A DNA stretch of 64,000 nt from an uncultured Kiloniellaceae bacterium. GTDB taxonomy: Bacteria > Pseudomonadota > Alphaproteobacteria > Kiloniellales > Kiloniellaceae. Positions 8,226 to 54,065 of this stretch are shown here, one piece after another. Within the stretch, counting starts at the first letter, position 1; every line of letters begins with the position of its first letter. The position numbers and the translations under genes are program-made. Where the stretch lies: contig CANLSF010000002.1 of the NCBI GenBank assembly GCA_947493695.1, forward strand, positions 1,240,001 to 1,304,000, read 5' to 3'. A model generated the notes under the pieces. That model did no database searches. It had not been told where the DNA came from and saw only the letters and a program-made list of their open reading frames with translations.

Positions 8226-8226
8226 G

Positions 8227-8883: not shown

Positions 8884-9180
8884 TCAACGAAACCGGCTCA
8901 AATATCCCAAATCCGCCAGGGGCAGCAGCGTCGCCAGAATCAACGCGCAGGTGATGACGAACCACATGCGCCGCTTCACCTTCCCTGAACTCTGATCCCG
9001 GCGGTGGCTGTAAACGGCAAAGGCCGAGGCCAGCAGCGCCAGGATCAGGCTGACCAGGTTGGCGATGGGGACCGTCATGGCGGTGGAAAAGCTGGGGGCG
9101 AGTTGGTTGTGGGCGATGGCGGCGGCCATAAGGCCGAGCGCAGCCAGGAGGCAGAGGTGGGTCATGAGGGCGGCGATCAT
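8884..9180 (-). CDS. Small hydrophobic membrane protein, function unknown
   Basis: Predicted 98 aa from the ATG at 9180, which follows an AAAGG ribosome site. The frame is open further up to 9309, but that part covers a hairpin terminator and is unlikely to be translated. About three membrane segments are visible (near MIAALMTHLCLLAALGLMAA, the IANLVSLILALLASAF stretch, and WFVITCALILATLLPL), with a short basic loop (YSHRRDQSSGKVKRR) between the second and third. I do not recognise a family. It is the first native-looking gene to the right of the restriction island and has no obvious partner. Confidence 0.6.
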   Translation of the reverse strand: MIAALMTHLCLLAALGLMAAAIAHNQLAPSFSTAMTVPIANLVSLILALLASAFAVYSHRRDQSSGKVKRRMWFVITCALILATLLPLADLGYLSRFR

Positions 9181-9229
9181 GGTCGGACCTTTTGAAGTAA
9201 GGTTAAAGGGGGCAAATCGAAGGCGGCAA

Positions 9230-9270
9230 AAAGGGGCGCTCCCGATCGTCTCGAGCAGGAACGCCCCTTT
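9230..9270 (-). terminator. Rho-independent terminator-like hairpin
   Basis: Inverted repeat AAAGGGGCG (9230-9238) / CGCCCCTTT (9262-9270) with a 23-nt loop. Read on the minus strand, the stem runs into a T-rich tract. It sits about 140 bp downstream of the LCCL gene and would end that transcript before the small membrane gene. Confidence 0.7.
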
Positions 9271-9363
9271 GCTTTCTTCAGTTACGTCAGCGACATCCGC
9301 TTGAAGCAATTTGCGTTTAAGCGGTCACAAAATTCGCTGTCTCTCAATCAGTGGAGTACTGAT

Positions 9364-10287: not shown

Positions 10288-10482
10288 GCGGCGAAACCTG
10301 CCGATATTGAAATTTGGTTTTTGAACATTCAGATCCCTCTTCGAAAAGAGGTCGTGATAAAAATCGTTTGCCTACGAATTTGTTTCACTCGTGTTTTATT
10401 AAGTCGCTCGATGCGCGAGCAGAAGCCGCATGGCTGCAAAATCAAAAAGTATTTTTGCAAACAGAGCCGAAACCGAAGCCCC

Positions 10483-10638
10483 TTAGAGCAGACCCGGTTT
10501 AGACGGAATCGCTGAAGGCGATCTGCCGTACCGGTGAATCTGCTCTAACTATTTTATGTGGAGCGGATTCACATGTTTCGGCGAAACCACAAAGTGGTTC
10601 CGACCAGGTTGAGAATTCATAGATATGGATTCTCAACC
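10483..10638. repeat. Composite palindromic intergenic repeat
   Basis: Four nested hairpins lie end to end in a gene-free stretch. TTAGAGCAGA (10483-10492) pairs with TCTGCTCTAA (10539-10548), with inner pairing ATCGC/GCGAT. ATGTG pairs with CACAT (10556-10574). AACCAC pairs with GTGGTT (10585-10599). GGTTGAGAAT (10607-10616) pairs with ATTCTCAACC (10629-10638). From memory, this layout resembles RIME-like palindromic repeats dispersed in alphaproteobacterial genomes. Only one copy is in the window, so dispersal is not shown. The rest of 10258-10833 has no gene that I can support; CCGGGA-N3-TCCCGG at 10733-10747 is a further hairpin without a U-tract. Confidence 0.7.
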
Positions 10639-10833
10639 GACACATGATTCGATCCAGGTGGGCACGATAATCTCTGTCTGTTCGGGACGTCCTGCAGGAT
10701 TGCATGAGTTCCGTGCGCTTATACGGGTTCATCCGGGAAGATCCCGGGGGTAGTTAAGAAGGGTGATCCTGTTTCGAGCGCACCAGGAGAAGTGTGGTTG
10801 CATCGAAAACCCCAGAGAAAGCTAGGTATAGGC

Positions 10834-11682
10834 ATGATGGAAAAGCTCTCATATATGAAGTCTGTGAAGGACTTTCCTCTAGAGATGAAGCCTCGTACAA
10901 AGGTTGTCGCCCTTCACTGCTCCGGCTGGAACGCAAAGCAATGGGGCTCGCTTCGTACAGTGCTCGGCCCGGACTTTGATCTGGTAACACCGGAACTCTA
11001 TGGCTGCAAAACCCGGGGGAACTGGCCGGGAGATCGTCCCTTCACGCTCGCGGATGAAACCGCTGAAACGCTGGAAATCATCGACGCCAGCAATACCCCG
11101 GTGCATTTAATCGGGCACTCCTATGGTGGCGCACTCGCACTGCACATCGCCATGGCCCGGCCAGAGAAAATTGCGAGCCTCGCCCTCTATGAACCCTGCG
11201 CCTATCACCTGCTTCGTCAGATTGGTAAGGACGGTGAAATCGGCTATGCCGAGATCATGGAATTGAACAACTTTGTCAACGCGCGGGTCGCCGTGGGTGA
11301 CTACAAAGCAGCGATGGCGAGCTTTATCGATTACTGGAATGGCGACAACGCCTGGGACTCGATGCGACCGGAATATCAGGCGCTGATGCTCCGCTGGGCG
11401 CCGAAGGCCCCTCTCGAATTTTATGCCCTTATGGAAGAATCCGAGCTGCTGTGGGCGTACGCTGCGCTCAAGATGCCGGTCTTGCTTTTAAGGGGCGAAT
11501 ACACCCCGGCACCGACCGAGGCGATTGCAAAGGCTCTGGCGGGAATTCTGCCCAACGCCCGGCTGATCGATGTCTCCGGGGCAGGCCACATGGGACACGT
11601 CACACATGCCAGCGACGTTCATGCCGCGATCATGAGCCACCTGGCTCCTCACTGGCTGATGCCGCTGAGGCAATCGGCCTGA
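10834..11682 (+). CDS. Alpha/beta-hydrolase fold protein
   Basis: Predicted 282 aa from ATG 10834; the frame is open from 10792, and ATG 10885 (MKPRTKVVALHCSG) is also possible. The nucleophile elbow is GHSYGG with S96, the oxyanion strand region is ALHCSGWNAKQW, and the C-terminal histidine is in SGAGHMGHV. The acid position in LLLRGEYTPAP appears to be Glu rather than the common Asp. It resembles soluble esterases or haloalkane/epoxide-hydrolase-like enzymes, but the substrate is unknown. A LysR gene follows after 30 bp on the same strand and may control it. Confidence 0.8.
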   Translation: MMEKLSYMKSVKDFPLEMKPRTKVVALHCSGWNAKQWGSLRTVLGPDFDLVTPELYGCKTRGNWPGDRPFTLADETAETLEIIDASNTPVHLIGHSYGGALALHIAMARPEKIASLALYEPCAYHLLRQIGKDGEIGYAEIMELNNFVNARVAVGDYKAAMASFIDYWNGDNAWDSMRPEYQALMLRWAPKAPLEFYALMEESELLWAYAALKMPVLLLRGEYTPAPTEAIAKALAGILPNARLIDVSGAGHMGHVTHASDVHAAIMSHLAPHWLMPLRQSA

Positions 11683-11712
11683 GCCAACGTAACAGACGAA
11701 GCGAAATTTAAC

Positions 11713-12564
11713 ATGGACTGGAACAATCTGAAGGTCGCTCTGGCGATCAGCCGGACGGGTTCACTGACCCGTGCGGCCCAGGTGCTCGGCGTTGACACCT
11801 CGACAGCCGGCCGGCGCCTCTCGACGCTGGAAGCAGATCTGGGTGTGCCGCTTTTCGTACGGACGAAAGCCGGCTTTGCGCTGACCGACGCCGGTGAGTC
11901 CGCGATCAACCGGGTCATGGTCGTGCAGAATCAGATTTCGTCGCTCGTCGACGACGTGACAGAATCAAATGATGGCCCAGTTGGCACGGTCCGTCTCTTT
12001 GCAACCGGCTGGGTCATCAAACGCCTGACACAAACGACCCTCGCATCCTTTCTGCAGGAGAATCCACAGATCGATCTTCGTACCCTGACACGTCCTCCCG
12101 ACAACATGGTGCGTGGTGACGCCTCCCTCTCTCTCTGGTTCGAGACCGAACCCAGAGACGGCGCCTTTACGATTGCGCTGGGCAAGATCCCCTATGCCGT
12201 CTATCGGGCGCGCAATCTAGAACACGACCCGCAGAATTGGGTGGCTTTCCAGGATGAGCTCTCGACCTGTCCCCTACTCGAACGTGCGAACCGGCGCCTG
12301 CGCCAGAAGGAGAAGACCTTACGCTTTACCGCAACAGACGCGGACATCCTTATGGCCGCAATCAAGGAGGGTCTGGGACAGGGCCTGCTGCCCATGTGTA
12401 TTGCGGAAGCGGACGCGGAACTGGTGCGTGTCAATCCGGGTGAACCTGACCTCGAACGCGTGATCTATGCCCATGCCTATCATGACACGGTGCAGACCCT
12501 CCGGATTCAATCCACGATCAGATGGCTGCGGGAGTCTTTCGACAGGGTGTTTCGCGAGTTTTGA
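11713..12564 (+). CDS. LysR-family transcriptional regulator
   Basis: A 283-aa regulator. The N-terminal winged helix (MDWNNLKVALAISRTGSLTR, VLGVDTSTAGRRLSTLE) is typical of LysR proteins of the MDWN/LxxF subgroup. A substrate-binding domain follows from about residue 90, with a shortened, single-lobed look. It lies downstream of, and probably in one transcript with, the hydrolase gene, so it may be autoregulated with it. The effector is unknown. Confidence 0.9.
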   Translation: MDWNNLKVALAISRTGSLTRAAQVLGVDTSTAGRRLSTLEADLGVPLFVRTKAGFALTDAGESAINRVMVVQNQISSLVDDVTESNDGPVGTVRLFATGWVIKRLTQTTLASFLQENPQIDLRTLTRPPDNMVRGDASLSLWFETEPRDGAFTIALGKIPYAVYRARNLEHDPQNWVAFQDELSTCPLLERANRRLRQKEKTLRFTATDADILMAAIKEGLGQGLLPMCIAEADAELVRVNPGEPDLERVIYAHAYHDTVQTLRIQSTIRWLRESFDRVFREF

Positions 12565-12587
12565 ATATCGCCGCAAAACCGCCCTCC

Positions 12588-13265
12588 TCAATCTCCTCTC
12601 AAGCGGTAACCTGCGCCTCTGACCGTCTGCAGCTTATTGCAGTGGGTCCCCAGTTTGCGACGCAGGCGGCCCACGTAGACATCCACGACATTGGTGAGCG
12701 GGTCTTCGTTGGTGCCCCAGACGGAGTTGAGAATTCGCTCACGGGAAAAGACGCGGCCTGGCTTGGAGAGGAAGAGCTTCAGGATCTCCCGCTCCTTGGC
12801 GGTCAGATCAAGTAACTCTCCATCGACGGTCGCCTCCAGACTCTCCAGGTCAAGTGTGACCGCACCCACCTGAAGCAGCGATTGCGCGGGCGGTTCGGTG
12901 AACTGAGTGGAGCGACGGGCGAGCGCTTCGACCCGCGCGATCAACTCATCAAACTCGAAGGGTTTGCCCATGTAGTCATCGGCACCGAGACGCAGGCCGG
13001 CCACCCGTTCATCCAAAGCGTCCAGCGCCGAAAGCATAAGGATCGGCGTCAGGTCACGTCGCGCACGCAGTTTGCGGCAAAAATCCTGCCCCTGCATACC
13101 CGGCAAGACCAGATCCAGCACGATCACGTCAAAACGATCCTGATGGGACAATTCCATTGCAATTTCCGCGTCGGGCGCATGGGTCACCACCCATCCTTCA
13201 GCCCGCAGACCCCGGACGATAAAGTCGGCAACACGTGCCTCGTCTTCTACCAATAAAAGGTTCAT
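12588..13265 (-). CDS. OmpR-family response regulator
   Basis: Predicted 225 aa from ATG 13265 (MNLLLVEDEARVADF). The frame is open further upstream, but the receiver domain starts here. The receiver has acidic residues at 8-9, phospho-acceptor D51 (VIVLDLVLPGM) and K101 (YMGKPFE). A winged-helix effector domain (LTAKEREILKLFLSKPGRVF ... DVYVGRLRRKL ... VRGAGYRLRG) completes it. It lies 490 bp downstream of the sensor kinase at 13757-15343 on the same strand. It is the likely partner but probably has its own promoter in that gap. Confidence 0.93.
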   Translation of the reverse strand: MNLLLVEDEARVADFIVRGLRAEGWVVTHAPDAEIAMELSHQDRFDVIVLDLVLPGMQGQDFCRKLRARRDLTPILMLSALDALDERVAGLRLGADDYMGKPFEFDELIARVEALARRSTQFTEPPAQSLLQVGAVTLDLESLEATVDGELLDLTAKEREILKLFLSKPGRVFSRERILNSVWGTNEDPLTNVVDVYVGRLRRKLGTHCNKLQTVRGAGYRLRGD

Positions 13266-13542
13266 CGCTTCCGGACCTCCCTGGGCTGGCCGTTCCGCAA
13301 CGCGTACCCTGTACACATTGCGATGAGAGAGAGAGACATATTGCCGTTCCTTCTGTTCGCGAGTGACACTTTGCAGTCCGGGGCGAAGTATCCCGCGACG
13401 CTGCAACCGCATCACACGGACCTCAAATGGTCTGTGTCATTTCGACCCTGTTGAGCACTCCGGCAGGAGCTGAAGCTCAGGGAAACGAGTCGAGTTACAT
13501 GACAACAACGGGCGCATCGGCGATTTAATCCCTGCCCGACTG

Positions 13543-13574
13543 TGATAAAAAAGGGGCATGATAAAAAAGGGGTG
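13543..13574. repeat. Tandem direct repeat in regulator upstream region
   Basis: TGATAAAAAAGGGG occurs at 13543-13556 and 13559-13572, a 16-bp period. It lies in the otherwise gene-free 13266-13756 interval between the kinase and regulator genes. OmpR-type regulators often bind direct repeats, so this may be an autoregulatory operator. That role is inferred. Confidence 0.55.
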
Positions 13575-13756
13575 CTGTAGGCAAACCTGGAATCCGGCGC
13601 CTATCGGATATAATGGGATTCTTCGGGCCATCCGAACACATTGAACCCCGCCAGCCTTTTCCCGAACCTGCCTTCAAATACACGGGCTTGGTTCAACGCA
13701 ATACGCGCTGACCAGGTGACAGAGAAAATACCGCAGGGTTTCTGATGCTGTGAGCT

Positions 13757-15343
13757 TTAAGACGCAGCTTCCAGCCGGGCACGATTGGGAAGCGTGAAGC
13801 GGGCTTGGACGCCGCCACCAGATTCGCTTGTCAGCGCAATCTGGCCTCCGTGGGCTTCGACGATTGCCTTTGCAACAGGCAGCCCCAGACCAGCGCCACC
13901 GTCGTATCGGATCGCGGCGTTGGAGCCTCTGAAAAACCGTTCGAAAACGTGCTCGCGCTCGCTCTCCGTGAGGCCGGGACCATCATCCGCAACTGTCACC
14001 GCAAAGCCACCAGGCGCAAAGTCCAGGCGGACTTCGACGCTTTCTCCACCATACCGCAGAGCGTTCTCCAGCAGGATTGTAACCACCTGTTGCACCCGGC
14101 GCGGGTCAGCCTGCAGCTTGGCTTCACTTACAGATGTCTCGAAGTTGACGGTCTTCTTAGCTTCACCGCCCAACGTCTTAGCTGTCGTGACGGCCCGCTG
14201 GACCAAATCCATCAGATCCACTTCGCGCGGACGAATCCTGACCTCTCCACTTTCCTGGCGGGCTACAAACAGCAAATCATCCACGATTCGGGCCGTATGA
14301 TCAGCTGCATCACGTGTCCGGTTCAGGACTTCCCGATACTCATCGGTACTGCGATCGCCGCCACGCAAGGCAACATCGGCCTCGCCGCGAATAATCGTCA
14401 AGGGCGTGCGCAATTCATGACTGACATCGGCCAGAAGACGTTTGCGATTGTCTTCAGACTCCCGCAGTGTTTTGAGCAATTTCTGCAGCTGTTCGGTCCT
14501 GCGTGAGACTTCGTGTTCAAGTGCGTCACGCGACGCAGATAACAGATCCTGGCGTTCCGCAACATTGTCGATCATCCGATTGAATGCCTGGGCGACGCTA
14601 CCAAGCTCAGTGCCGCCCGGAACATCAATGCGATGATCAAGCTCGCCGCGTCCAACTGCTTTCGCACCTGCGAGCAAGCGTTGCAGCGGCACCGTCAAGC
14701 CACGGCGAAGAAACATGATGCCGAAGACCGCCGTCAGAGCCGCGATCACCCCTGCCGCAATCGCCGCGATCTCGAAGAGAACAATGGCGGCCTGCATCTC
14801 TGCTGCAGCCTCGCGCACTTCCTCTTCTTCCTCGGCAAGCGCCGCTGCGATCAAGGCTTCGAAATCCGCATCTATCTTTTCGTCCAGGAATTTTGAAAGG
14901 CGGTCCTGAAAACCCGCCGGATCCGAGTTCTGGGCAGTGGTATGCAGTCGCTGAAATTCCTGCAGCACCGACTCGATCTTGCGTTCGATCTGAGCCAGCA
15001 GTTCGAGTTCCTCGATCTCCTCATGCCCGACCAGTTGGACTTCTTCAGCGATCATGACGCGAAGCTGCCGGATATCACCGCGAATAGCCGTCAGCAAAGC
15101 AGCTTCGCCCTGCCCGCGGTCCCGATCGCCAATCATCAGTGCGTCGCCAAACTGCTTGAAGAGCTGATAGGTATGATTGGAAAGCGAGAGGTACTGGCCG
15201 TGTACGCGATAGGCAAGCTGCGAGCGCTCGAGGTGCTTTTCAGCCGAATGCGCGCTCCAAAATGCGATACCCGCAGAAACCAGTGCAATTGCCAGTAATG
15301 CACTGAAGGATAGGGTAAGTTTCGTCAGATAGCGCAATTTCAC
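13757..15343 (-). CDS. Sensor histidine kinase
   Basis: Predicted 528 aa from the GTG at 15343, which follows AAAAGGG with good spacing; an ATG at 15400 would overlap the upstream gene. Topology: membrane segment about 9-30, a periplasmic alpha-helical sensor region to about 185, a second membrane segment about 190-212, then HAMP, a short coiled coil, and HisKA with phospho-acceptor H309 (ADVSHELRTP). The ATPase domain has an N box (ENALRYGG), ADDGPGL and GGAGLGLPVAKA. It is last in an operon behind an ABC exporter (10-bp gap), so it may sense what that system handles. The response regulator lies downstream. Confidence 0.93.
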   Translation of the reverse strand: MKLRYLTKLTLSFSALLAIALVSAGIAFWSAHSAEKHLERSQLAYRVHGQYLSLSNHTYQLFKQFGDALMIGDRDRGQGEAALLTAIRGDIRQLRVMIAEEVQLVGHEEIEELELLAQIERKIESVLQEFQRLHTTAQNSDPAGFQDRLSKFLDEKIDADFEALIAAALAEEEEEVREAAAEMQAAIVLFEIAAIAAGVIAALTAVFGIMFLRRGLTVPLQRLLAGAKAVGRGELDHRIDVPGGTELGSVAQAFNRMIDNVAERQDLLSASRDALEHEVSRRTEQLQKLLKTLRESEDNRKRLLADVSHELRTPLTIIRGEADVALRGGDRSTDEYREVLNRTRDAADHTARIVDDLLFVARQESGEVRIRPREVDLMDLVQRAVTTAKTLGGEAKKTVNFETSVSEAKLQADPRRVQQVVTILLENALRYGGESVEVRLDFAPGGFAVTVADDGPGLTESEREHVFERFFRGSNAAIRYDGGAGLGLPVAKAIVEAHGGQIALTSESGGGVQARFTLPNRARLEAAS

Positions 15344-43842: not shown

Positions 43843-44115
43843 GTGACAGAGCAGAACAAATTGAGCGATCACGAGCTCATGAAGCTACTGCCGTTTTATG
43901 TAAACCAGACACTTGGTCAGTCTGAGCGGGCTTCTGTTGAGACCTACCTGCAGCGCTCTGAAGAGGCGCGCAAAGAACTCGTCTATCTCAAAGAATTGCG
44001 GCAATCCCTGAAGCAGCAACCGCAGGCGACATCTCCCGGAGAACTGGGTCTGAAACGCCTACAGAGACAGATCAAACATCTGAAGACATCAGGCAAAGAG
44101 CCTGAGATCGACTAA
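43843..44115 (+). CDS. Degenerate anti-sigma-factor-like protein, no membrane segment
   Basis: Predicted 90 aa from GTG 43843, preceded by GGAGG at 43832-43836. LSDHELMKLLPFYVNQTLGQ matches the start of zinc-finger anti-sigma domains (LPWYVNGTL type). But the H-x3-C-x2-C zinc ligands are absent, replaced by YLQRSEEARKEL. The protein stops after a basic helix, with no membrane anchor and no periplasmic part. No sigma factor gene is adjacent. It may be a truncated remnant or a soluble sigma binder tied to the two secreted proteins upstream. Confidence 0.6.
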   Translation: MTEQNKLSDHELMKLLPFYVNQTLGQSERASVETYLQRSEEARKELVYLKELRQSLKQQPQATSPGELGLKRLQRQIKHLKTSGKEPEID

Positions 44116-44204
44116 GTTCGGAATATTCAGACGCCAACCCGGCTTGAGCAAATCGAGGTTGGAGGGCATCGCCTCCCATGGTTTCGAGTTCTGATTTATC
44201 TGCA

Positions 44205-44582
44205 CTAACCTGAGAGCTGATCAGCGCGCGTTTGCGCAACTGACTCACGGATTTCATGAATCTGCCGTGCAACGTCACTTGTTTCCACAAAACCAGCTTC
44301 AAGAAGCGTTTCCTCAGCCGCAATCAGCCAGCAATCAAAGTATTGCAGGTCAATTTCTTCGGCAGTCAGTTGAACATCGGCAGACTGATGTTGTTTCAAC
44401 GTCGCCACAAGTCTTTGCTGAAAGCTCTTCCAGGGAAGCTGGTTGTTTTTCACCAGCGCCACAATCAAGGCAAAGATACGGGCATGCCACGGTGTGCGGA
44501 ACAAAGGTTCGTTCTCTGATCGCACCGGCAGGGTCGCCCGGGCAAGGTCGAGTGCGTCGCGGTGCTGCTCAAGCGGGTTCAA
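44205..44582 (-). CDS. Nitrile hydratase activator/accessory protein
   Basis: Predicted 125 aa from TTG 44582, which follows GGGAGG with 6-nt spacing; an ATG at 44606 has no ribosome site. It resembles the beta-subunit N-terminal half (LFRTPWHARIFALIVAL, LPWKSFQQRL, YFDCWLIAAEETLLEAG), as expected for the P14K/NhlE-type proteins that load metal into nitrile hydratase alpha. It overlaps the beta gene by 14 bp and closes the operon. Confidence 0.88.
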   Translation of the reverse strand: MNPLEQHRDALDLARATLPVRSENEPLFRTPWHARIFALIVALVKNNQLPWKSFQQRLVATLKQHQSADVQLTAEEIDLQYFDCWLIAAEETLLEAGFVETSDVARQIHEIRESVAQTRADQLSG

Positions 44583-45231
44583 GGTAGGCCTCCCATAGAT
44601 CCGCACAAAGCGAGTCGCCTACCTGAGCTTCTTCTCCCCAGAGGTCTTGAGCGGAGAAAACAACCGTGTAGCAGTGCTGAGGGTCTGGCCCTCGCCCCGC
44701 CACAACCGCGTCCGCGAACTGGAATACACCTTCATCGCTTACAATCCGACCGGTCTTGCCACGCAGGTATCGCGGCACCCGTGTATGCCCGGCCGCTTGA
44801 GTGTGCGACACCAGAACAGATTGACCAACGGCAAAACGCGCGGACTGTGTATCCTCAGGGAACCGCAGGTCAGCACCTGCCTTTGTGGCGTCGACGATCT
44901 CATGCACGCCAACGGGCGCATGACTCTTCTGATCAACATCAAAATGCTTCCTGCCATCGTCCAACTCGCTCTGATCAACGAGGCCTGCTTCCTTCAGCAG
45001 CATCTCCGAAGCAACGATCCAATTCTCAAAATAATCGAGGCGCAGATAGTCTGCGGGTGGCACACACTCTACTGCGTGACGATGCTGGTCGGTATTGTAA
45101 GGCGTCGACCAGGCCAACGCTTCGACCAAAGCAAAGGCCCGGCGTTGCCAGGCGGACCGGAAGATATAGTCTTCCTCGACAGCAATTCTTCCGAAGCCCT
45201 GCTTGCCGCCCATATCGTGAATGCCGTCCAT
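44569..45231 (-). CDS. Nitrile hydratase beta subunit
   Basis: A 220-aa beta subunit opening MDGIHDMGGKQGFGRI, the hallmark of the family. It then shows WQRRAFALVEAL, YFENWIVASEMLL, and a C-terminal SH3-like barrel (VPRYLRGKTGRIV, YTVVFSAQDLWGEEA). With alpha it forms the enzyme that hydrates nitriles to amides. It lies 8 bp after the alpha gene. Confidence 0.95.
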   Translation of the reverse strand: MDGIHDMGGKQGFGRIAVEEDYIFRSAWQRRAFALVEALAWSTPYNTDQHRHAVECVPPADYLRLDYFENWIVASEMLLKEAGLVDQSELDDGRKHFDVDQKSHAPVGVHEIVDATKAGADLRFPEDTQSARFAVGQSVLVSHTQAAGHTRVPRYLRGKTGRIVSDEGVFQFADAVVAGRGPDPQHCYTVVFSAQDLWGEEAQVGDSLCADLWEAYLEPA

Positions 45232-45239
45232 CGACTGTC

Positions 45240-45872
45240 CTAAACTGCGGCTGTCCCAATCATGCCGTTGCGGGTAACCAGCTGCGCGAGCTCCTCGACA
45301 CTCAAGTCACCCGTATTTGCCGGCCGCACTGGTAATATCAGATACCGCACCTCAGCCGTGCTGTCCCAGACACGCACCTGCGTACCACGTGGTAACTCAA
45401 ACCCGAATTCCTCAAGAACGACGCGGGGCTCACGGACCACACGCGAGCGATAGGCCGGGCTTTTATACCAGGCAGGCGCCAATCCCAACACTGGCCAGGG
45501 ATAACAGGAACAGAGAGTGCAAACGACAACGTTGTGGGTTTCGTCTGTATTCTCAATGACCCGAATATGTTCCCCCTGAACGCCTCTGAACCCCATGCTG
45601 TTTATCGCAGCCGTACCATCCTGCAGCAGCCAGTTCTTGAATTCAGGATCGCTCCACGCCCTGGCAACAACCGCCGCACCGTTTCTTGGCCCAGTCTCGC
45701 GCTCATAATACTCGACGATACTGTCCAGGGCTTCCGGATCAACCAGGCCTTTGGCGACGACAATCTCCTCAAGTGCCCGCACCCGCAGGGCCGCGCCTTC
45801 TTCGAGTGGGTCATGCTCATGGCCGTGACCATCTGTATGACCCTTGTCCGAACCTTTACTCTGCTTCGACAT
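45240..45872 (-). CDS. Nitrile hydratase alpha subunit, cobalt type
   Basis: A 210-aa alpha subunit. The metal site is C118-T-L-C121-S-C123 within VVVCTLCSCYPWP. Thr at the second position marks the cobalt-type enzyme (iron types have Ser), and C121 and C123 are the ones oxidised to sulfinic and sulfenic acids. A His-rich N-terminus (GHTDGHGHEHD) may aid metal capture. Its ATG lies 17 bp inside the 3' end of the nitrilase-family gene, implying coupling. Confidence 0.95.
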   Translation of the reverse strand: MSKQSKGSDKGHTDGHGHEHDPLEEGAALRVRALEEIVVAKGLVDPEALDSIVEYYERETGPRNGAAVVARAWSDPEFKNWLLQDGTAAINSMGFRGVQGEHIRVIENTDETHNVVVCTLCSCYPWPVLGLAPAWYKSPAYRSRVVREPRVVLEEFGFELPRGTQVRVWDSTAEVRYLILPVRPANTGDLSVEELAQLVTRNGMIGTAAV

Positions 45873-46641
45873 GGCCGAGCCTCTTCAGGTCGTCGAGATA
45901 GCAGCTGCGATTCCGACTGCTGCGAACATCCGTTAAATACAGGTCAGCGAAGATAAGTGCCGGGTCTGCATCGGCCTCAGCCAGTATTGTACCATCTGGC
46001 GCAACGACGCTGGAGAGACCGAGAAAGTCGAGATCTTCCTCCTGCCCCACCCGATTGCAATAGGCGACAAAAACCTGATTCTCAATGGCGCGGGCCGGCA
46101 CCAGAACCTGAGCAACTTCTTTACTCGGTGCCATAAGGGCCGTCGGCGTTGCAATCAGCTCGACCCCGGCCTGTGCCAGCTCACGGGTAAGTTCGGGGAA
46201 CTCGATATCGTAGCAAATCAACAGACCGGTTTTAATACCGGCCAGAACCACGACCTCACAGCTCGCGCCGGGAACAAAGGTTTCCTGCTCCCACTTGCCA
46301 TAGAGCGCCCGCTTGCAGTAGTGCGCGAGCATCTCGCCTTTTTCGTCAATGGCGAAGGCGACGTTTCGTATGCCTTCTTCTTTTGCCACAAGAGCGCCGA
46401 CCACAATGGCGAGTTGATGCGTTTTTGCCCGTCGTTGCAATTCAAGCAGCCAATCGGAAACATCGGGCACGCGCGCCGCTGTCAGATCAGCGCTGTAATA
46501 CCCGGTCATGATGCCTTCAGGGAAAATCAGTAGGTCCGCGTTTTTTTGCGCTGCCGCTTCGACATCCGAAAGAACCCGGGCCATGGTAGCTTCGAGGTCG
46601 CCTGGCACGCCCGCCATCTGGGAAAGTGCGATGCGTTTCAT
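45856..46641 (-). CDS. Nitrilase-superfamily carbon-nitrogen hydrolase (probable amidase)
   Basis: A 261-aa enzyme with the catalytic triad E42 (LLIFPEG), K110 (HYCKRALYG) and C143 (LLICYDIEFPE). The size and the CYDIEFPE context fit the aliphatic/omega-amidase or carbamoyl-hydrolase branches better than true nitrilases. Next to nitrile hydratase, it probably hydrolyses the amide product to the acid and ammonia. It lies 8 bp after the transporter permease gene. Confidence 0.88.
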   Translation of the reverse strand: MKRIALSQMAGVPGDLEATMARVLSDVEAAAQKNADLLIFPEGIMTGYYSADLTAARVPDVSDWLLELQRRAKTHQLAIVVGALVAKEEGIRNVAFAIDEKGEMLAHYCKRALYGKWEQETFVPGASCEVVVLAGIKTGLLICYDIEFPELTRELAQAGVELIATPTALMAPSKEVAQVLVPARAIENQVFVAYCNRVGQEEDLDFLGLSSVVAPDGTILAEADADPALIFADLYLTDVRSSRNRSCYLDDLKRLGHVEAE

Positions 46642-46649
46642 CTCAGTTC

Positions 46650-47447
46650 CTATTTAGCGTCTCTTGCCGCGGCGCCGAGCAGGCGCGGAAGATCTCCGAA
46701 ACGGGCAACCAGTCCAAACACGACGATGGAAACCAGAGCAAAGATGACCGCCACCGCCGCCATAACGGGTGTGTAACCGTAGCGCAGGGAATTGAAGATC
46801 TTGATGGGCAGTGTCTCGACCGTAAAGCCCGCCACCATGTAGGCGATGATGTACTCGTTCAGACTGAGAACGAATGCAAAGGCAAAACCAGACACGATGT
46901 AGGGTGTGATGAGGGGCCGGACGACCGTGAAGAACACCGTCCTCTCGTTCGCGCCCATCGTCCGTGCCGCCTCGATCAGTTGACGGTTGATGGATTCCAG
47001 TCCGAGGGAAATCGTCACCAACGGCAAGGTGACCAGAAAGACGCCGTGGGAAATGATGGTTGCCGCCATATGTCCGGAGCCGCCAACCGAGACCCAGAAA
47101 ATCAGAAGCCCGAGAGCCGTGATCACCGGGGGCAGCATAAAGGGAGCCAGGCCGATGCTGAACAGCAAACGCGCGAAGCGGGAGTCCCGCTGCCAAAGGA
47201 AAAGCGCAACGGGAAGTGCGACAGAAACCGCCAGAATACTGGCGAAGAACGCAATCAGTACGGAATTCTGAAGGGCGTTAAACCAGGCGCTCTGCGTGAA
47301 AAGTTCGCCGTACCAGTCCAGGGTAAAGCCCTTCGGCGGAAAGAGCAGCCGTTTCTTCTCGTTCACCGACACGCCGGCCACGACCAGGATCGGTGCGGTC
47401 ATAAAACAGAAGACGGCGATCATAAAAATCGTGCGTATTGCCTTCAT
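46650..47447 (-). CDS. Spermidine/putrescine-type ABC transporter permease (PotC-like)
   Basis: A 265-aa membrane protein with six helices and the EAA-type cytoplasmic loop EAARTMGANERTVFFTVVRPL. It is the second permease of a PotABCD-type importer. Its start overlaps the end of the first permease gene (ATGA, 47444-47447). The substrate is probably a cationic amine- or guanidine-like compound, inferred from the ureohydrolase at the head of the operon. Confidence 0.92.
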   Translation of the reverse strand: MKAIRTIFMIAVFCFMTAPILVVAGVSVNEKKRLLFPPKGFTLDWYGELFTQSAWFNALQNSVLIAFFASILAVSVALPVALFLWQRDSRFARLLFSIGLAPFMLPPVITALGLLIFWVSVGGSGHMAATIISHGVFLVTLPLVTISLGLESINRQLIEAARTMGANERTVFFTVVRPLITPYIVSGFAFAFVLSLNEYIIAYMVAGFTVETLPIKIFNSLRYGYTPVMAAVAVIFALVSIVVFGLVARFGDLPRLLGAAARDAK

Positions 47448-48328
47448 GCCTTACCTCCAGCCGCGTCATCTTTTCCCATCAGAAGCGTGATCGCCACCAT
47501 GAGCAGGGATACGAGCAGAAGCAGGATCGCCATCGCAGCCGCAAAGGGCAGGTTCGCTTCGAATATAGCCTGGTCGGTGATGTGTACCGAAAGCGTCCAG
47601 TGCGGCGGCTTCCCGAGTGTCTGCGGCAGGATGTAGGCGCCAAGCGTGAAAACGAACGCCAGGATAATTGTGCTGATGATCGTTCGTTTCATCACCGGCA
47701 CGACCACAGTGAAGAACGTTCTGACCGGTGAGGCCCCCATCATCTGGGCTGCTTCGGAGAGTTCCGGGTCGAGCCTGGAGAGCGCAGGGTAAAGAACCAA
47801 CACTGTGTAGGGGAAGCTCAGGTAAACCAGCCCAAGCAGCAAAGCGGGAAGGCTTGGATAATAAGCGGCACTGCGTTCCAGCAATCCCAGCGCGGCAAAC
47901 AGATTCGAAATACCGGCTGTCCGGGACAACAGCGTCGACCAGGAGAAGCCGATAATTACCTCCGACAGAGACAGAACCGCCAACAGAAAGACCAACGCGA
48001 AGACCTGCGTGCTCCTGCTCGCCCGGGTCAGACTGTAGGTAAAGGGAAAGGCAATCATCACGGCAATGACCGCAGCCGAAATAGACAGGCCGATCGAAAA
48101 CGCCAGGATCTTGATGAAGAATGCATCCAAGAACCGAGCGTAATTCGCGAATTCGAACGCCGGCTCGTAAAACGCCCCTTCGACGCGATGAAAGAAGCTG
48201 ACCGCCAACATGATGCCAAGGGGAATCAGAAAGAAGACGCCCAGCATCAATGACGCATAGGCAGGCGGCAGCAGCTTTGCAGAGAAGATCCGTTCAGGAA
48301 CGGAAGAATGGTTTTCGACAGCACTCAT
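47444..48328 (-). CDS. Spermidine/putrescine-type ABC transporter permease (PotB-like)
   Basis: A 294-aa membrane protein with six helices and the loop EAAQMMGASPVRTFFTVVVPVM, typical of PotB-like permeases. It overlaps by 4 bp both the ATPase gene (48325-48328) and the second permease gene. Confidence 0.92.
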   Translation of the reverse strand: MSAVENHSSVPERIFSAKLLPPAYASLMLGVFFLIPLGIMLAVSFFHRVEGAFYEPAFEFANYARFLDAFFIKILAFSIGLSISAAVIAVMIAFPFTYSLTRASRSTQVFALVFLLAVLSLSEVIIGFSWSTLLSRTAGISNLFAALGLLERSAAYYPSLPALLLGLVYLSFPYTVLVLYPALSRLDPELSEAAQMMGASPVRTFFTVVVPVMKRTIISTIILAFVFTLGAYILPQTLGKPPHWTLSVHITDQAIFEANLPFAAAMAILLLLVSLLMVAITLLMGKDDAAGGKA

Positions 48329-49392
48329 GCCGGAAACACCGTACAGGCTTCCGGCGGAAATTCGACCGTGACCTCATCACCGACAGCAACATTCGGTTTG
48401 TCTTTAGGGGTCATGGTTGCCGTTAACTCCATGGCGTCATGCGCAAGCATGATCTCAACCTGCGCGCCCAGATCCCGAATAAAGGTGACGCTTGCGCTCA
48501 GCGTATTTGTGTCGCGCTGCGTGTCGGGCAGAATGTGAAGATCTTCGGGACGCACGGAGAGCACCGCATCCTGACCAGGACTCAAAGCATCCGGTCGCTC
48601 CGAAGTCGCAACTTTGCGGCCAAAGAGTTCCACGGTGGAATCGTCGATAACTCTACAAGGCAAGATATTGCTCGCGCCGATGAAGTCGGCGACGAAGGCG
48701 TTTGCCGGCCTCCGATAGATTTCGAGTGGTGGGCCGTATTGCTGGACCTTGCCGTCTTTCATGATGACGACATGATCGGCCATGGTCATGGCCTCACGCT
48801 GATCGTGGGTCACGACAATGGTCGTGATGCCAAGGCTTTTCTGCAGCTGCCGCAACTCGACCTGCATGGCTTCACGCAGTTTTGCGTCGAGCGCAGATAG
48901 TGGCTCATCGAGCAGAAACAGGCGCGGGTGAATCGCGAGAGCCCGGGCAATGGCAACGCGCTGCCTCTGGCCACCGGAAAGCTGCGTGATACGACGATCG
49001 CCAACACCGGGCAGATGCACCATGTCGAGCAATTCATCCACGCGCGACTTCATCTCGGCGGCTGACTGTCCGCGAATACGCAGCGAATAGGCGATGTTCT
49101 GCGCAATACTGAGGTGAGGGAACAAGGCAAGGGATTGAAAGACCATGCCGAAGTCACGCTTGTGCGAGGGAACATCGACGATCGATTTCCCGTTGAATAC
49201 GATATTGCCGCTGCTCGGGTATTGCAGTCCCGCGATCAGGCGCAGCAGCGTGGTTTTACCGCAGCCGGAGGGACCGAGCAGGCAAACGAACTTTCCTTCT
49301 GGCAGTGTGAGATCAATTCCGTCAATCGCGCGGACGGAGCCGAAGTTCATATTGAGGTTTTGCAGCTCAAGACCGCTGGCAGAATCTGACAA
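48325..49392 (-). CDS. Spermidine/putrescine-type ABC transporter ATPase (PotA-like)
   Basis: A 355-aa importer ATPase. Walker A GPSGCGKTT (40-48), signature LSGGQRQRVAIARAL, Walker B LFLLDEPLSALD, H-loop VVTHDQ, and a C-terminal TOBE regulatory domain (SVRPEDLHILPDTQRD). It energises the two permeases encoded downstream. A hairpin separates it from the binding-protein gene. Confidence 0.94.
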   Translation of the reverse strand: MSDSASGLELQNLNMNFGSVRAIDGIDLTLPEGKFVCLLGPSGCGKTTLLRLIAGLQYPSSGNIVFNGKSIVDVPSHKRDFGMVFQSLALFPHLSIAQNIAYSLRIRGQSAAEMKSRVDELLDMVHLPGVGDRRITQLSGGQRQRVAIARALAIHPRLFLLDEPLSALDAKLREAMQVELRQLQKSLGITTIVVTHDQREAMTMADHVVIMKDGKVQQYGPPLEIYRRPANAFVADFIGASNILPCRVIDDSTVELFGRKVATSERPDALSPGQDAVLSVRPEDLHILPDTQRDTNTLSASVTFIRDLGAQVEIMLAHDAMELTATMTPKDKPNVAVGDEVTVEFPPEACTVFPA

Positions 49393-49459
49393 GGAAAGAC
49401 CTTATGGAATCGTTTGTTGCTTTAAAAGCGAATGAAATTTCAGGTACGCAGGACAAGAC

Positions 49460-49490
49460 CGGTGGAGAGGTACAAAGCCCCTCTCCACCG
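49460..49490 (-). promoter_or_regulatory. Intercistronic hairpin after the binding-protein gene
   Basis: CGGTGGAGAGG (49460-49470) pairs perfectly with CCTCTCCACCG (49480-49490) around a 9-nt loop. There is no U-tract. It lies 16 bp below the binding-protein stop, a usual place for a stem that protects that message and raises binding-protein over ATPase levels. Confidence 0.65.
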
Positions 49491-49505
49491 ATACCCATCG
49501 CCTGA

Positions 49506-50585
49506 TCAGCTGGCAATCAGCTCTGCCCACTTCTGGTTAAGCCAGTCACCCTTGCTGTTGTAGAGGTCGTAGCGCGGAATGATCGGCTTGATGTCGCTCG
49601 AAACCGCTGCAAATTCTTCGTCGGTCAGATCCGTCAGCTCCCGTGGCACGGTGGGAGCCGTTCCGACCTTACGCGCGAGCTTTGCCTGAATGTCGGTCTG
49701 GCTCATGTAGTTGATAAAGGTCTGGGCCTCTTCCTGACGCTTGGAGGTCTTGATCAGACACCAGGAGCCGGAATCAAGGATGCCGCCTTCTTTCGGGAAG
49801 GTTGAACGCACCGGCTGTCCATCGGCTGCGGCGAGCCCCGTGACGTCGTGATAGTACTGACCCATCGGAATTTCGCCGGTTTCCAGCGCCTGCTGGAACT
49901 GCCCTTCATCCCGGTACCAGAGACGTACGTTGTCTTTCAACTCGGCGAGCTTGGCCATCACCTTCAGAATACCTTCGTCGGTATCCATGATGTCCGTTCC
50001 GCCGAACCATGTCGTCGCCGTGACTTCCAGGAGGAAGGAGTTATCCACTTTGGCCAGAAGACCGAGGGTGTCCTTGTATTTCGGATCCCACATGTCTTTC
50101 CAGGAGGTCGGTGCGTCAGGGTAGGTTTCTGTGTTCGTCACCAGTGTGATGTACCACGAAAGCGCCCCGATAGCGTAGACCGAACCATCATCGTACTTGC
50201 GCACAAAGTGCTCAGGCAATTTGGACGTGTTTTCCAACTTGCTGCTATCCAGGGGCATCCAGAGCTTGTCTTTCGCGCCCTTTGAAGCAGCGGTCTGGGT
50301 CATCATGGAAACGTCAGCCGGTGCCTGCCCGGCGCGCGCCGCAGCCTGCAGCTGAACCAGCCATGCGGATCCGGTCGGCTCGCTGATGGATTCGACCTCA
50401 ATCCCGGTCGCCTCGGTGAAGGCAGGATAGATGTGCTTGTCGAAAGACTCCTGAAAATATCCACCGTACGTGCCGACTTTGAGAGGCTCACCCGCGGCCC
50501 GAAGGATCGCAGGTGCCGCCAGCACTCCAAGGCCCGCCGCTGTGGTAGTCTTCAGAAACTGACGTCTGGTTACTTTTTTGAACAT
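49506..50585 (-). CDS. Spermidine/putrescine-type substrate-binding protein (PotD-like)
   Basis: A 359-aa periplasmic binding protein. The N-terminus VTRRQFLKTTTAAGLGVLAA is a twin-arginine signal, so the protein may be exported folded. The mature part (VGTYGGYFQESFDKHIYPAF, DPKYKDTLGLL, SGSWCLIKTSKRQEEAQ) is of the PotD/extracellular-binding-protein 1/8 type. The polyamine-pocket acidic residues could not be aligned by eye. It is 52 bp below the ureohydrolase gene. Confidence 0.92.
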   Translation of the reverse strand: MFKKVTRRQFLKTTTAAGLGVLAAPAILRAAGEPLKVGTYGGYFQESFDKHIYPAFTEATGIEVESISEPTGSAWLVQLQAAARAGQAPADVSMMTQTAASKGAKDKLWMPLDSSKLENTSKLPEHFVRKYDDGSVYAIGALSWYITLVTNTETYPDAPTSWKDMWDPKYKDTLGLLAKVDNSFLLEVTATTWFGGTDIMDTDEGILKVMAKLAELKDNVRLWYRDEGQFQQALETGEIPMGQYYHDVTGLAAADGQPVRSTFPKEGGILDSGSWCLIKTSKRQEEAQTFINYMSQTDIQAKLARKVGTAPTVPRELTDLTDEEFAAVSSDIKPIIPRYDLYNSKGDWLNQKWAELIAS

Positions 50586-50637
50586 AACGTTCTCCCTGTT
50601 ATTTTCGCGAGGACGGATCGAATTCCGGCCTCAAGTA

Positions 50638-51609
50638 TCACGATCTGGATTTACGCGGCAAAACGCAAAGCATCTCGTAGAGCAGATTGGCGCCCAACAA
50701 CGCGGTATTCCCGCTGGTATCGTAAGGCGGCGAAACCTCGACAAGGTCTCCGCCAACGAGGTTCAGACCGTCACAGCCGCGCACAATTTCCAGACCCTGC
50801 ATCGATGTAAGTCCACCGACTTCGACAGTGCCGGTTCCCGGCGCAAAGGCCGGATCCAGACCATCGATATCAAACGACAGATAGACCGGTGCATCTCCGA
50901 TCCTGACCCTAATATCCGCCATCAGCGGCGACAAGGACTTGTGCCAGCATTCGTGGGCCTGAACGACCGTAAAGCCCTGCTTCCGTCCCCAGTCAAAGTC
51001 ATCCGGCGCGTAACCTGTGCCGCGCAGCCCGATCTGGAAGACCTTGTCGTTGATCAGCAGCCCCTCCTCAACGGCCCGGCGAAACGGCGTTCCATGGGCG
51101 ATCTTTTCGCCGAACATCTCGTCATTCGTATCCGAGTGGGCATCAATGTGAATGAGGGCAACAGGTCCGTGCTGCTCCTTCATCGCCTGCAAGATCGGAT
51201 AGGTCAGCGTGTGATCACCACCGAGCGTCAATGGAACAACACCGTGGCTGAGAACCTCTTTGTAAGCTCGGGCGATGATCTCAATCGACTTTTTGAGATC
51301 GAACGTGTTGATCGCCACATCGCCGATATCCGCAACCTGCATCTCAGCGAAGGGCGCCGCGCCCGTGGCCATATTGAAGGGGCGCAACATCGCGCTTTCG
51401 GCCCTCATTGCGCGCGGCCCAAAGCGCGTGCCGGAGCGGTTCGAAGTGCCGATATCCAGTGGAACCCCCACGAAACAGGCGTCCAGACCTTCCGCCGTCT
51501 CCTGAGCAGGCAGACGCATCATCGTCGCATCACCCCCGAAACGCGGCATTTGATTGCCGCCAAGAGGCTGATTCAGTTCGCCTTTCGTTACAATACTCAT
51601 CAGTGACAT
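50638..51609 (-). CDS. Agmatinase-family ureohydrolase (guanidinobutyrase/guanidinopropionase-like)
   Basis: Predicted 323 aa from ATG 51609 after AAAGG; ATG 51600 is an alternative. The di-metal site is complete: GGDHTLTYP, DAHSDTND and SFDIDGLDPAFAPGTG. GVPLDIGTSNRSGTRFGPRA and AESAMLRPFNMATGAAPF closely recall GpuA/GbuA, which act on 3-guanidinopropionate and 4-guanidinobutyrate. Related enzymes also cleave agmatine or free guanidine. All release urea, the substrate of the urease at 1757-4101. It heads the operon containing the transporter, amidase and nitrile hydratase. Confidence 0.88.
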   Translation of the reverse strand: MSLMSIVTKGELNQPLGGNQMPRFGGDATMMRLPAQETAEGLDACFVGVPLDIGTSNRSGTRFGPRAMRAESAMLRPFNMATGAAPFAEMQVADIGDVAINTFDLKKSIEIIARAYKEVLSHGVVPLTLGGDHTLTYPILQAMKEQHGPVALIHIDAHSDTNDEMFGEKIAHGTPFRRAVEEGLLINDKVFQIGLRGTGYAPDDFDWGRKQGFTVVQAHECWHKSLSPLMADIRVRIGDAPVYLSFDIDGLDPAFAPGTGTVEVGGLTSMQGLEIVRGCDGLNLVGGDLVEVSPPYDTSGNTALLGANLLYEMLCVLPRKSRS

Positions 51610-51705
51610 CGATGCCTTTATGAAAATTAAGCCCAACGATACCGAATCGTCTTCGCAAGCATCAATAAAGGCGTCTCAACCCATATATTTGAAAAAACAA
51701 ATGTA

Positions 51706-52599
51706 TTATGCCTGGTGTGCGCGGACCAAGGTCTCACAGAAGGCGCTGATGACGACCGGTTTCTTGCCGGACTTGGTGACCATCTGCATTTGACAACGGT
51801 AGGGAGCTTGATTGAGCTCGAACCGTCGCAGACGTTTTCCTTCAACATAAGACTTCGCCAGGTGGTCGGGCAGCAGGCCGATGTAGCGGCCGCTCAGCAC
51901 GATCATCAGCTGGGATTCGATTTCGTGCACTGAAAGGTCAATTTCGCGGATGTTAAGCGCCCGCTGTCGTTGGCGGCTCCAGTAGCCGCGGTCGATGCGC
52001 GCACTGTCTTCAATCATCTGGTCGGTGATTTCATCGTCCGGCACCGGGAACAAGGGATGACTTGCGCCGCAGTAGAAGGAGTGCTGCTCAGAATAGAGGT
52101 CCACGTACTCAAGCCCATGGATCGCCTTATCGAAACTGCCGATCCCGACATGCAGACCACCGTCCATGACCTGCCGCAGGATTTCCTGTGGCCGCTGTTG
52201 CGAGAGCTCGAAACGGATCATCGGGGCATGATTGATAAATCTGCTGATCGCGTCGGGCAACTTCATCGCATCGTCCGTCGAGATACAGTCCACTGTTGCG
52301 ACGCGCAGGGAGCCGACCATGTTCCCCCTGAGTTCGGCGAGCTTGCTGGAGCTGTCTCCAATCGCGGTGAAGAGATTCTGGCTGACCTCGTGCACCATGC
52401 GACCTTTTTCGGTCAGCAGGAAACCGCGGCGACCCCGCTGGCAGAGCTTGATGCCCAGGCGCTCCTCCAAGGCGGTGATGTGATTTGAGATCGTTGGCTG
52501 ACTCAGGCCCAGCTCAGCCTGGGCTGCGGAGAAGCCGCCATTTCGTACAACGCTGTCGAAAACGGTCAGGAGATGCAGATCAGAGCCGGATATTTTCAT
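51706..52599 (-). CDS. LysR-family transcriptional regulator
   Basis: Predicted 297 aa from ATG 52599 (MKISGSDLHLLTVFDSVVRN). Recognition helix AELGLSQPTISNHITALEERLG; effector domain from about residue 90. It lies upstream of, and on the same strand as, the ureohydrolase operon (97 bp) and divergent from the aminotransferase gene. Either could be its target. Confidence 0.9.
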   Translation of the reverse strand: MKISGSDLHLLTVFDSVVRNGGFSAAQAELGLSQPTISNHITALEERLGIKLCQRGRRGFLLTEKGRMVHEVSQNLFTAIGDSSSKLAELRGNMVGSLRVATVDCISTDDAMKLPDAISRFINHAPMIRFELSQQRPQEILRQVMDGGLHVGIGSFDKAIHGLEYVDLYSEQHSFYCGASHPLFPVPDDEITDQMIEDSARIDRGYWSRQRQRALNIREIDLSVHEIESQLMIVLSGRYIGLLPDHLAKSYVEGKRLRRFELNQAPYRCQMQMVTKSGKKPVVISAFCETLVRAHQA

Positions 52600-52943
52600 A
52601 AAATCATTGAAAGTTGCAAATGTAAGGAATTGCAAGTGCTTATTTCTTGAATTTACCGCCTGATTGGACTGAACTGCGCAGAAGCGTTACAGCAATTTTC
52701 CGTGACGGTCGGTGAGTGTGGTGGAAGTGACGTTCGTGTCATTTATGACGTCTTTGCCTGTTACGCGGTTAGGCGCGAGGGCTGCGGTGATGTGGAGCAT
52801 CACAAAGTCCTCGCAACGACATCCGCGAGACTTGCAAAGGCGCCAGAAAGGTCGCTTCCACCACACTAAGCCGATTGCTCACTTTTCCCGGAGGCCCCGT
52901 CATATCTTCTGCCCCTATCAATTGCGCCATCACTCGACTGAGT

Positions 52944-54065
52944 ATGCCGCCCATACCCGCTGTGCAAAAATCAGCCGCGAACTATGACGGTCGTTACGGC
53001 CCCCTGATCGATCTTTCGCAAGCCGTTCCGGGTTATCCGGCCCACCCTCTCCTGCTTGATCAACTTGAGTCAGCGGCGAGGCAACCCGAATTGCTCGGTT
53101 ACGGAAGCATCGAAGGCGAGCAATCCCTGCGCGCTGCCTATGCACAGGATCTGAAACAGGTTTTCCGAACCGACTTCGACAGCACCGAAGTACACATCAC
53201 AGCAGGTTGTAACCAGGCGTTCGTGGCAACAGCCCTTACACTCGCCGGTCCCGGCGAAACACTGCTGTTGATTACGCCTTTCTACTTCAACCACGATTCA
53301 AGCCTCAGCATGCTCGGCATCAAAACCAAGGCCTTGGCTGCTCAGGCGACAGACGGTTTTCTACCGGATCCTGAGGCGGTGAGAGACGCCATAACGCCGG
53401 ATGTGAAGGCCATCGTGTGCATCACCCCCAACAACCCAACCGGCGCAGTCTATCCCCCTGAACTCATGGAGGCCTTGTTCGACATCTCTGTCGACCGGAA
53501 CATCTGGCTGATCGTTGATGAAACCTATCGCGATTTTCTGCCAGAGGGCGGGACTCCACCGCATGGTTTGTTTCAGCGCAAGAATTGGCGTGAGCACCTT
53601 GTCGGCTTATACAGCTTTTCAAAGTCCTTCTGCATTCCCGGACACCGGCTGGGCGCAATTACAGCAGGCGCGGAGATGGTCCAGCAAGTCGCCAAGGTGA
53701 TGGACAACCTTCAGATCTGCGCCCCACGGCCTCCCCAGACGGCCGTCGCCGCAGCAATGCCTCAATTGGGAGACTGGCGAGAGGAGAATCGTCAGGAAAT
53801 ATCGCGGAGACGCGAAACCCTGGAAAAGGTGATTGCGGGCCTTCCAGGTTGGGAGATCGCATCAGTGGGCGCCTACTTCAGCTATATCCAGCATCCCTTT
53901 GAGAACACCAATTCCATAGAGGTCGCGGAGCGCCTTGCTGCAGAACGCGGTGTTCTGAGCCTGCCGGGCACCTTCTTCGGTGAGGGGCAAGACGCTTTTC
54001 TGCGCGTGGCATTTGCCAATGCGGGTTGCCTGGAACTGGAAGAGCTTGCTGAGCGTTTAGCGTAA
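52944..54065 (+). CDS. Class I/II PLP-dependent aminotransferase
   Basis: Predicted 373 aa from ATG 52944; the frame is open from TTG 52875 and the true start is uncertain, as no clear ribosome site was found. Visible are CITPNNPTGAVYPPE, DETYRDFLPEGG and the PLP lysine in GLYSFSKSFCIPGHRLG, with a C-terminal LRVAFAN arginine for the substrate carboxylate. Fold type I aspartate-aminotransferase-like; the amino donor is unknown. It is convergent with the Ldh_2-type reductase gene and may belong to the same pathway. Confidence 0.88.
   Translation: MPPIPAVQKSAANYDGRYGPLIDLSQAVPGYPAHPLLLDQLESAARQPELLGYGSIEGEQSLRAAYAQDLKQVFRTDFDSTEVHITAGCNQAFVATALTLAGPGETLLLITPFYFNHDSSLSMLGIKTKALAAQATDGFLPDPEAVRDAITPDVKAIVCITPNNPTGAVYPPELMEALFDISVDRNIWLIVDETYRDFLPEGGTPPHGLFQRKNWREHLVGLYSFSKSFCIPGHRLGAITAGAEMVQQVAKVMDNLQICAPRPPQTAVAAAMPQLGDWREENRQEISRRRETLEKVIAGLPGWEIASVGAYFSYIQHPFENTNSIEVAERLAAERGVLSLPGTFFGEGQDAFLRVAFANAGCLELEELAERLA

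Follow-up and report, generated by a model that had tools for sequence, protein, structure and literature searches.

What does a bacterium degrade with a nitrile hydratase (NHase), an amidase and a ureohydrolase that are encoded in one operon with a PotDABC-like importer? This gene set lies on the minus strand of a 64,000-nucleotide stretch of the genome of an uncultured Kiloniellaceae bacterium (the window; contig CANLSF010000002.1, positions 1,240,001 to 1,304,000). Comparison with related genomes confirmed that the operon is real and conserved beyond chance; the gene identities, gene order, conservation of the linkage and conserved specificity residues were observed directly. We lean towards the reading that the operon serves the catabolism of a nitrile with a guanidino-alkyl group; 4-guanidinobutyronitrile, or a compound much like it, would be the likeliest substrate.

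The operon runs from the ureohydrolase gene to that of an NHase accessory protein and comprises nine minus-strand genes. The initial annotation had their presence, strand and coordinates right, but counted eight. A co-oriented gene for a LysR-type regulator lies upstream (51706..52635, minus strand; Pfam HTH_1 and LysR_substrate), with homologues at the same place in four other NHase operons (51–92% identity). From the LysR gene to the accessory gene, the intergenic gaps are 69, 52, 113, −4, −4, 8, −17, 8 and −38 bp, so that the last seven genes, from the PotA-like ATPase to the accessory protein, are tightly packed. The first gap is that to the longest open reading frame of the ureohydrolase, which a TTG start would lengthen to 51636; measured to the ATG at 51609, it is 96 bp. 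The LysR protein is the probable regulator of the operon. The gbuA gene of Pseudomonas aeruginosa likewise adjoins a LysR gene, that of its regulator GbuR. A promoter scan of positions 44000–53000 carried low information (zero sigma-70-like sites, compared to 3.7 in shuffled sequences).

The operon recurs outside the window. Operon-type NHase (at least 73% identity) was found in five genomes from two lineages: three of the window's genus (the source genome G000, G002 and G003) and two of the Ruegeria family sample (Ruegeria G406, locus L071, and a second genome, G684, locus L120). All five have LysR, a window-type ureohydrolase (Gbu; about 80% identity or more), PotDABC, and the NHase alpha, beta and accessory genes. 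The window genes are syntenic in the two other genus genomes (L097 and L098), and the LysR-Gbu-PotDABC-NHase set of the two loci from the Ruegeria family sample shows 73–80% identity in NHase alpha and about 80% in Gbu. The gene order for which a search had been proposed is thus present in five genomes of two lineages, except for the amidase of L071 and L120. L071, G002 and G003 were first found through the amidase and G684 through the NHase, which by itself also recovered G003. G001, a fourth genus genome, has no close amidase; the NHase was not searched for there.

The linkage is nevertheless rare, as would be expected if unrelated genes had come to lie together by chance or only for a time. 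The Ruegeria family sample, with 394 genomes, contained operon-type NHase in 2. When 387 genomes of the class were each searched with three proteins, NHase alpha and Gbu co-occurred in 18 and lay within 15 kb of each other in only two, G000 and G003, which belong to the window's genus. For the 398 genomes of a phylum sample, NHase hits that passed 1e-86 came from G000 alone, apart from a single NHase of 63% identity, which had no GbuA or PotD within 20 kb. However, the gene overlaps, the synteny shared by three species of the window's genus, the two Ruegeria-family genomes with their approximately 80% identical Gbu, and low ratios of nonsynonymous to synonymous differences (pN/pS) make chance scarcely credible. 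Across all ten genes, set against those of G003 and G002, pN was 0.03–0.16 and pS 0.49–0.71, with pS near saturation and the G002 Gbu represented by the longer of its two pieces.

Could the operon be a shared scavenging unit, with NHase and amidase acting on some nitriles and amides, GbuA acting separately on guanidino acids, and both regulated in common by nitrogen demand? NHases often have broad substrate ranges, and related importer modules function without an NHase. In addition, an amidase adjoins the NHase at four of five plasmid loci examined (the exception being Sulfitobacter). The plasmid search (PLSDB) for operon-type NHase gave 36 records with a best identity of 71%; no ureohydrolase was annotated in the five loci examined, in a database whose annotation is stated to be incomplete. 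However, one would expect more variation from a loose grouping, whereas operon-type NHase was found only alongside Gbu (5/5). No Gbu, PotD or operon-type amidase was found at 39 other NHase loci (39 of 112 other places, some of the loci ending at a contig edge), and a probe with a single signature amidase matched just two of these 39. Likewise, 20 other GbuA loci (20 of 25 other places) had neither NHase nor PotD, and a 21st, L160, had the importer without NHase. We consider the scavenging explanation unlikely, though it keeps some weight.

The ureohydrolase (50638..51609, minus strand) resembles a 4-guanidinobutyrase, as the initial annotation had suggested. In a PDB search its best match was P. 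aeruginosa GbuA (3nio; 517 bits, 71.2% identity over 309 residues), followed by GpuA (308 bits), proclavaminate amidinohydrolase (234 bits) and agmatinases (198 bits or less). It contains GGDH, DAHxD and DxD, which we take to be the metal motifs, and both specificity residues of GbuA, R72 and M161, are conserved. R72 is described as a cap over the neighbouring subunit's active site, where it could touch the acid group of the substrate (PMC9772407), and M161 is named as a recognition residue (PMC10833137). The protein also passed the NCBIfam agmatinase cut-off (TIGR01230; 212.5 compared to 174.3 bits). This label is not specific and not to be trusted, because the ureohydrolase of an NHase-free importer module (L163) passed it too (211.4 bits), and because the human 'agmatinase', which is closest to GbuA, is reported not to hydrolyse agmatine (PMC9772407). 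The assignment as a GbuA-type 4-guanidinobutyrase is supported, with the activity predicted from sequence. The window gene differs from P. aeruginosa gbuA in sharing its operon with an NHase, an amidase and an importer.

These scores bear directly on cyanoguanidine (dicyandiamide), which had also been offered as a substrate. An NHase could hydrate this cyano-guanidine to guanylurea, from which amidase and ureohydrolase would yield guanidine and urea. However, the PDB entries 7esr and 7oi1 ('Probable agmatinase 2'), which we take to be the guanidinase GdmH, scored 145 bits and metformin hydrolase subunits at most 84.5 bits, compared to the 517 bits for GbuA; the ureohydrolase is not guanidinase-like. 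In addition, guanylurea hydrolase is an isochorismatase-family enzyme, and the operon has no gene of that family. We therefore regard cyanoguanidine as a very improbable substrate, even though relatives of the ureohydrolase are reported to be active on guanidine and metformin (PMC11410670, PMC11271267).

All three NHase proteins passed their NCBIfam cut-offs: the alpha subunit (45240..45872; equivalog TIGR01323, 292.3 compared to 249.85 bits), the beta subunit (44569..45231; TIGR03888, 205.2 compared to 152.2 bits) and the accessory, or activator, protein (44205..44606; TIGR03889, 62.5 compared to 46 bits), all encoded on the minus strand. The alpha subunit has the Co-type motif VCTLCSC (CTLCSC) and its nearest PDB entries are Co-type, in agreement with the initial annotation. 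The cut-off for the gamma subunit of thiocyanate hydrolase was not reached (TIGR03887; 179.3 compared to 291.45 bits). The source genome has three more NHase alpha genes (C1:198258, C3:613791 and C5:385877), 50–64% identical to that of the window, and no Gbu, PotD or operon-type amidase was found in about 20 kb around them. The nearest alpha subunit outside the NHase operons (71%) is that of an Aminobacter plasmid. This alpha subunit, at locus L113 (Aminobacter conjugative plasmid pANY103d), occurs with an aldoxime dehydratase, an amidase and a branched-chain-type importer. The aldoxime dehydratase-NHase-amidase clusters on plasmids of Aminobacter, Agrobacterium and Pantoea resemble the window in combining NHase and amidase, and those of Aminobacter and A. 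tumefaciens also in having an ABC importer. They differ in that their annotated 'amidase' is of another kind, that an aldoxime dehydratase is present, and that the annotation of the stretch shown includes no ureohydrolase.

The nitrilase-superfamily protein (45856..46641, minus strand; Pfam CN_hydrolase) has the triad E42, K110 and C143. In 42 aligned sequences K110 and C143 were invariant and E42 was at least 90% conserved. It passed no NCBIfam cut-off, and scored far below those for true nitrilases (NF040852, 98 compared to 500 bits; TIGR04048, 26 compared to 502.6 bits). Its nearest solved relative was the Nesterenkonia amidase (122 bits), which was also the first fold match of its structure model (predicted local distance difference test, pLDDT, 93.7). 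An amidase, as initially proposed, is the best reading, with the activity predicted from sequence and model; the need for a separate NHase would then be accounted for.

Relatives of the amidase give a hint of its substrate. Among the best 80 of 587 loci (a search in which its own and very near genomes may have been left out), a homologue of an amino-acid 2-monooxygenase lay within 500 bp of the amidase homologue in 41, was farther off within the same locus in 6, and was not found in 33. The 2-monooxygenase-linked amidases share about 40% identity with the amidase of the window, and that of Pseudomonas putida (L005) shares 41%. There, a 560-residue FAD enzyme, to which NCBIfam gives no specific name, precedes the amidase, and NHase and ureohydrolase had no match. 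From the gene order and general knowledge, we take this pair to be davB-davA. DavBA has the amidase family in common with the window but serves a lysine route, not a guanidino one. In it, the 2-monooxygenase is reported to make 5-aminovaleramide and the amidase the acid (PMC12930585), and arginine is described as being converted to 4-guanidinobutyramide and then the acid in the synthesis of the azalomycin starter (PMC5082578). Family context therefore suggests a cationic amide as the substrate of the window amidase.

A different cationic nitrile would also fit such an amidase. With an omega-amino nitrile (4-aminobutyronitrile or 5-aminovaleronitrile), an amidase of the 5-aminovaleramide type, as the family membership of the presumed P. 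putida DavA beside DavB would allow, would complete the route, and GbuA would act on a parallel guanidino substrate. However, GbuA would then have no role in the chain, although none of the five operon-type NHase loci lacks it, and we consider an amino nitrile improbable.

The importer consists of a PotD-like periplasmic binding protein (49506..50585; Pfam SBP_bac_8), a PotA-like ATPase (48325..49392) and PotB-like (47444..48328) and PotC-like (46650..47447) permeases, all on the minus strand and the last three identified by profile matches. The NCBIfam equivalog cut-offs were not reached (PotD 65 of 582 bits, PotA 350 of 482, PotB 109 of 348 and PotC 133 of 326). The PotD-like protein has a twin-arginine translocation (Tat)-type leader that scored just below the TAT_signal cut-off (19.9 compared to 22.7 bits), and its structure model, made from two sequences, had a mean pLDDT of 34.7, too low for use.

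PotD relatives of at least 60% identity were found at 23 loci (L099–L104 and L160–L176), 17 in the class search by PotD alone and six in the family through the amidase, and hence biased. A ureohydrolase was present at 18, an amidase at 18 and both at 17; for the 17 PotD-only loci these numbers were 12, 12 and 11. The order of the window, ureohydrolase-PotDABC-amidase, occurred at 13 of the 23. This is a widespread alphaproteobacterial module. Three loci below 60% identity (L177–L179), outside this count, had none of the partner genes. The module ureohydrolases form a clade separate from GbuA, with G in place of R72 and F or Y in place of M161 (four aligned).

Three of the 23 loci (L165, L166 and L169) combine the module with a 2-monooxygenase and a decarboxylase, and a fourth (L173) has the ureohydrolase and the decarboxylase. 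The L165 decarboxylase passed the NCBIfam cut-off for 5-guanidino-2-oxopentanoate decarboxylase (702 compared to 500 bits), and the others were assigned by 67–77% identity to it. At a further locus (L190), the GbuA gene adjoins a 2-monooxygenase match in two pieces. These gene contents tie the importer module to arginine degradation. The source genome has a second cluster of PotABC, binding protein, amidase and class III aminotransferase (C10:48500-68400, L110), which is resembled by loci in G001, G002 and G003. A zinc alcohol dehydrogenase gene lies near the amidase at L071 (12447-13502), L120 (15602-16623), L166 (4955-5974) and L169 (4970-5995).

Taken as a whole, the gene content suggests that the three enzymes would act in series on one molecule, and suggests both the identity of that molecule and the kind of ligand the importer may bind. 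The importer would take up a cationic compound; NHase would convert 4-guanidinobutyronitrile to 4-guanidinobutyramide, the amidase would release 4-guanidinobutyrate and ammonia, and the GbuA-type enzyme would produce γ-aminobutyrate (GABA) and urea. The LysR protein would probably sense a pathway compound. The proposed substrate is the nitrile that would be left of arginine after loss of the carboxyl carbon. Within the window operon no enzyme other than NHase would form an amide, and a search with the L165 2-monooxygenase found no match in the source genome (it had no positive control there; homologues were found at other loci by another search). These two observations support the chain from nitrile through amide and 4-guanidinobutyrate to GABA and urea. 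The neighbourhood of amidases and 2-monooxygenases, together with the arginine-linked importer operons, makes an NHase replacing the 2-monooxygenase a coherent nitrile entry. Thus, the nitrile-amide-acid chain of the initial annotation gains from the enzyme families and the arginine-route context, without cyanoguanidine. As for its suggestion that the urea might feed a urease in the window, a match to the urease alpha subunit is present at 2401-2754 (plus strand). Such use of the urea may occur, but about 41 kb separate this match from the operon, with which it has no linkage.

Several observations weigh against a guanidino-nitrile pathway. None of the 23 related importer loci has an NHase, which makes the NHase an optional addition. 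The two rhodobacterial operons (L071 and L120) have no amidase within them; their amidases lie outside, divergent, and belong to another branch than that of the window (36–38%), in a tree group that holds 13 of the 16 module amidases. Homologous operons that lack one of the enzymes, which the initial annotation had regarded as telling against its pathway, thus exist in part. The window amidase itself falls on a deep branch of its own with the long-branched L074, outside the 2-monooxygenase-linked group, so its substrate is suggested by family context only. Two of the five operons may be damaged: Gbu of L098 (G002; 11796-12759) is in two frames of 174 and 141 residues, and PotD of L120 (G684; 12768-13418) is apparently interrupted by a frame change, in each case through sequence error or decay. 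The NHase alpha sequences of the operons grouped only together with the Aminobacter plasmid enzyme of the aldoxime operon (support 97/80; 46/0 without it). PotD of the NHase operons did not resolve as one clade, nor was a single clade rejected (two changes; approximately unbiased test, p = 0.314; four NHase-operon rows, the split G684 gene being left out). Finally, 4-guanidinobutyronitrile, in four spellings, was not named in the open-licence PMC literature searched.

By contrast with PotD, Gbu of the NHase operons formed a single clade (100/98, from four rows and without the split G002 gene). Its sister (93/85) was the GbuA of a GbuA-LysR pair at L160 (G023; 5554-14584), where the two genes adjoin a full ureohydrolase-PotDABC-amidase module, so that two ureohydrolases stand together. 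This locus looks like an intermediate stage towards the window operon. The simplest history seems to be that LysR-GbuA joined the module and displaced its ureohydrolase, with NHase added at the end. The position of amide-forming enzyme, held by the 2-monooxygenase in some sister operons, seems to be filled by NHase.

Where would the nitrile come from? A protein search for aldoxime dehydratase found no match in G000, G406 or G684 (the positive control W01 matched), so the nitrile would probably come from outside. The same enzyme had 34% matches in G002 and G003, and a Pfam search gave no match, but nor did its controls. Haloperoxidases are described as oxidising amino acids to nitriles (PMC13054786). 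One may speculate that such an enzyme would turn arginine into 4-guanidinobutyronitrile, with no link to the source organism. The red-algal guanylureas gongrine and gigartinine were considered as a guanidino source and rejected; as described (PMC13208526), they are not nitriles.

How does this compare with what is known? The proposed route shares with the arginine 2-monooxygenase pathway the steps from amide to 4-guanidinobutyrate and on to GABA and urea, and at L165, L166 and L169 a 2-monooxygenase occurs together with a ureohydrolase and with members of the importer and amidase families of the window operon. It differs in that the NHase of the window would form the amide from a nitrile, not by oxidation of arginine. 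Among the papers listed from the open-licence PMC literature, none described NHase and guanidinobutyrase combined in an operon, and the sole co-mention of the two, as far as the text available goes, was in a review of beta-alanine production. The available text of a study of floodplain nitrifiers names NHase and guanylurea genes, not this operon (PMC12625717). The nitrile entry is best read as a new addition to the known 4-guanidinobutyrate route, as judged from sequence comparison. A more specific proposal, which we advance tentatively and at somewhat less than even chances, is that the operon encodes a regulated pathway dedicated to one natural nitrile derived from arginine, 4-guanidinobutyronitrile.

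If the proposal is correct, the operon would provide a nitrile entrance to a known route of arginine degradation, and this group of NHases would have a likely natural substrate. It would also imply an unrecognised natural pool of guanidino-nitriles, for example from oxidation of arginine by hypohalite or haloperoxidase, which might be sought by mass spectrometry. The sister operons offer a built-in comparison, in which 2-monooxygenase and NHase would be alternative makers of the same amide.

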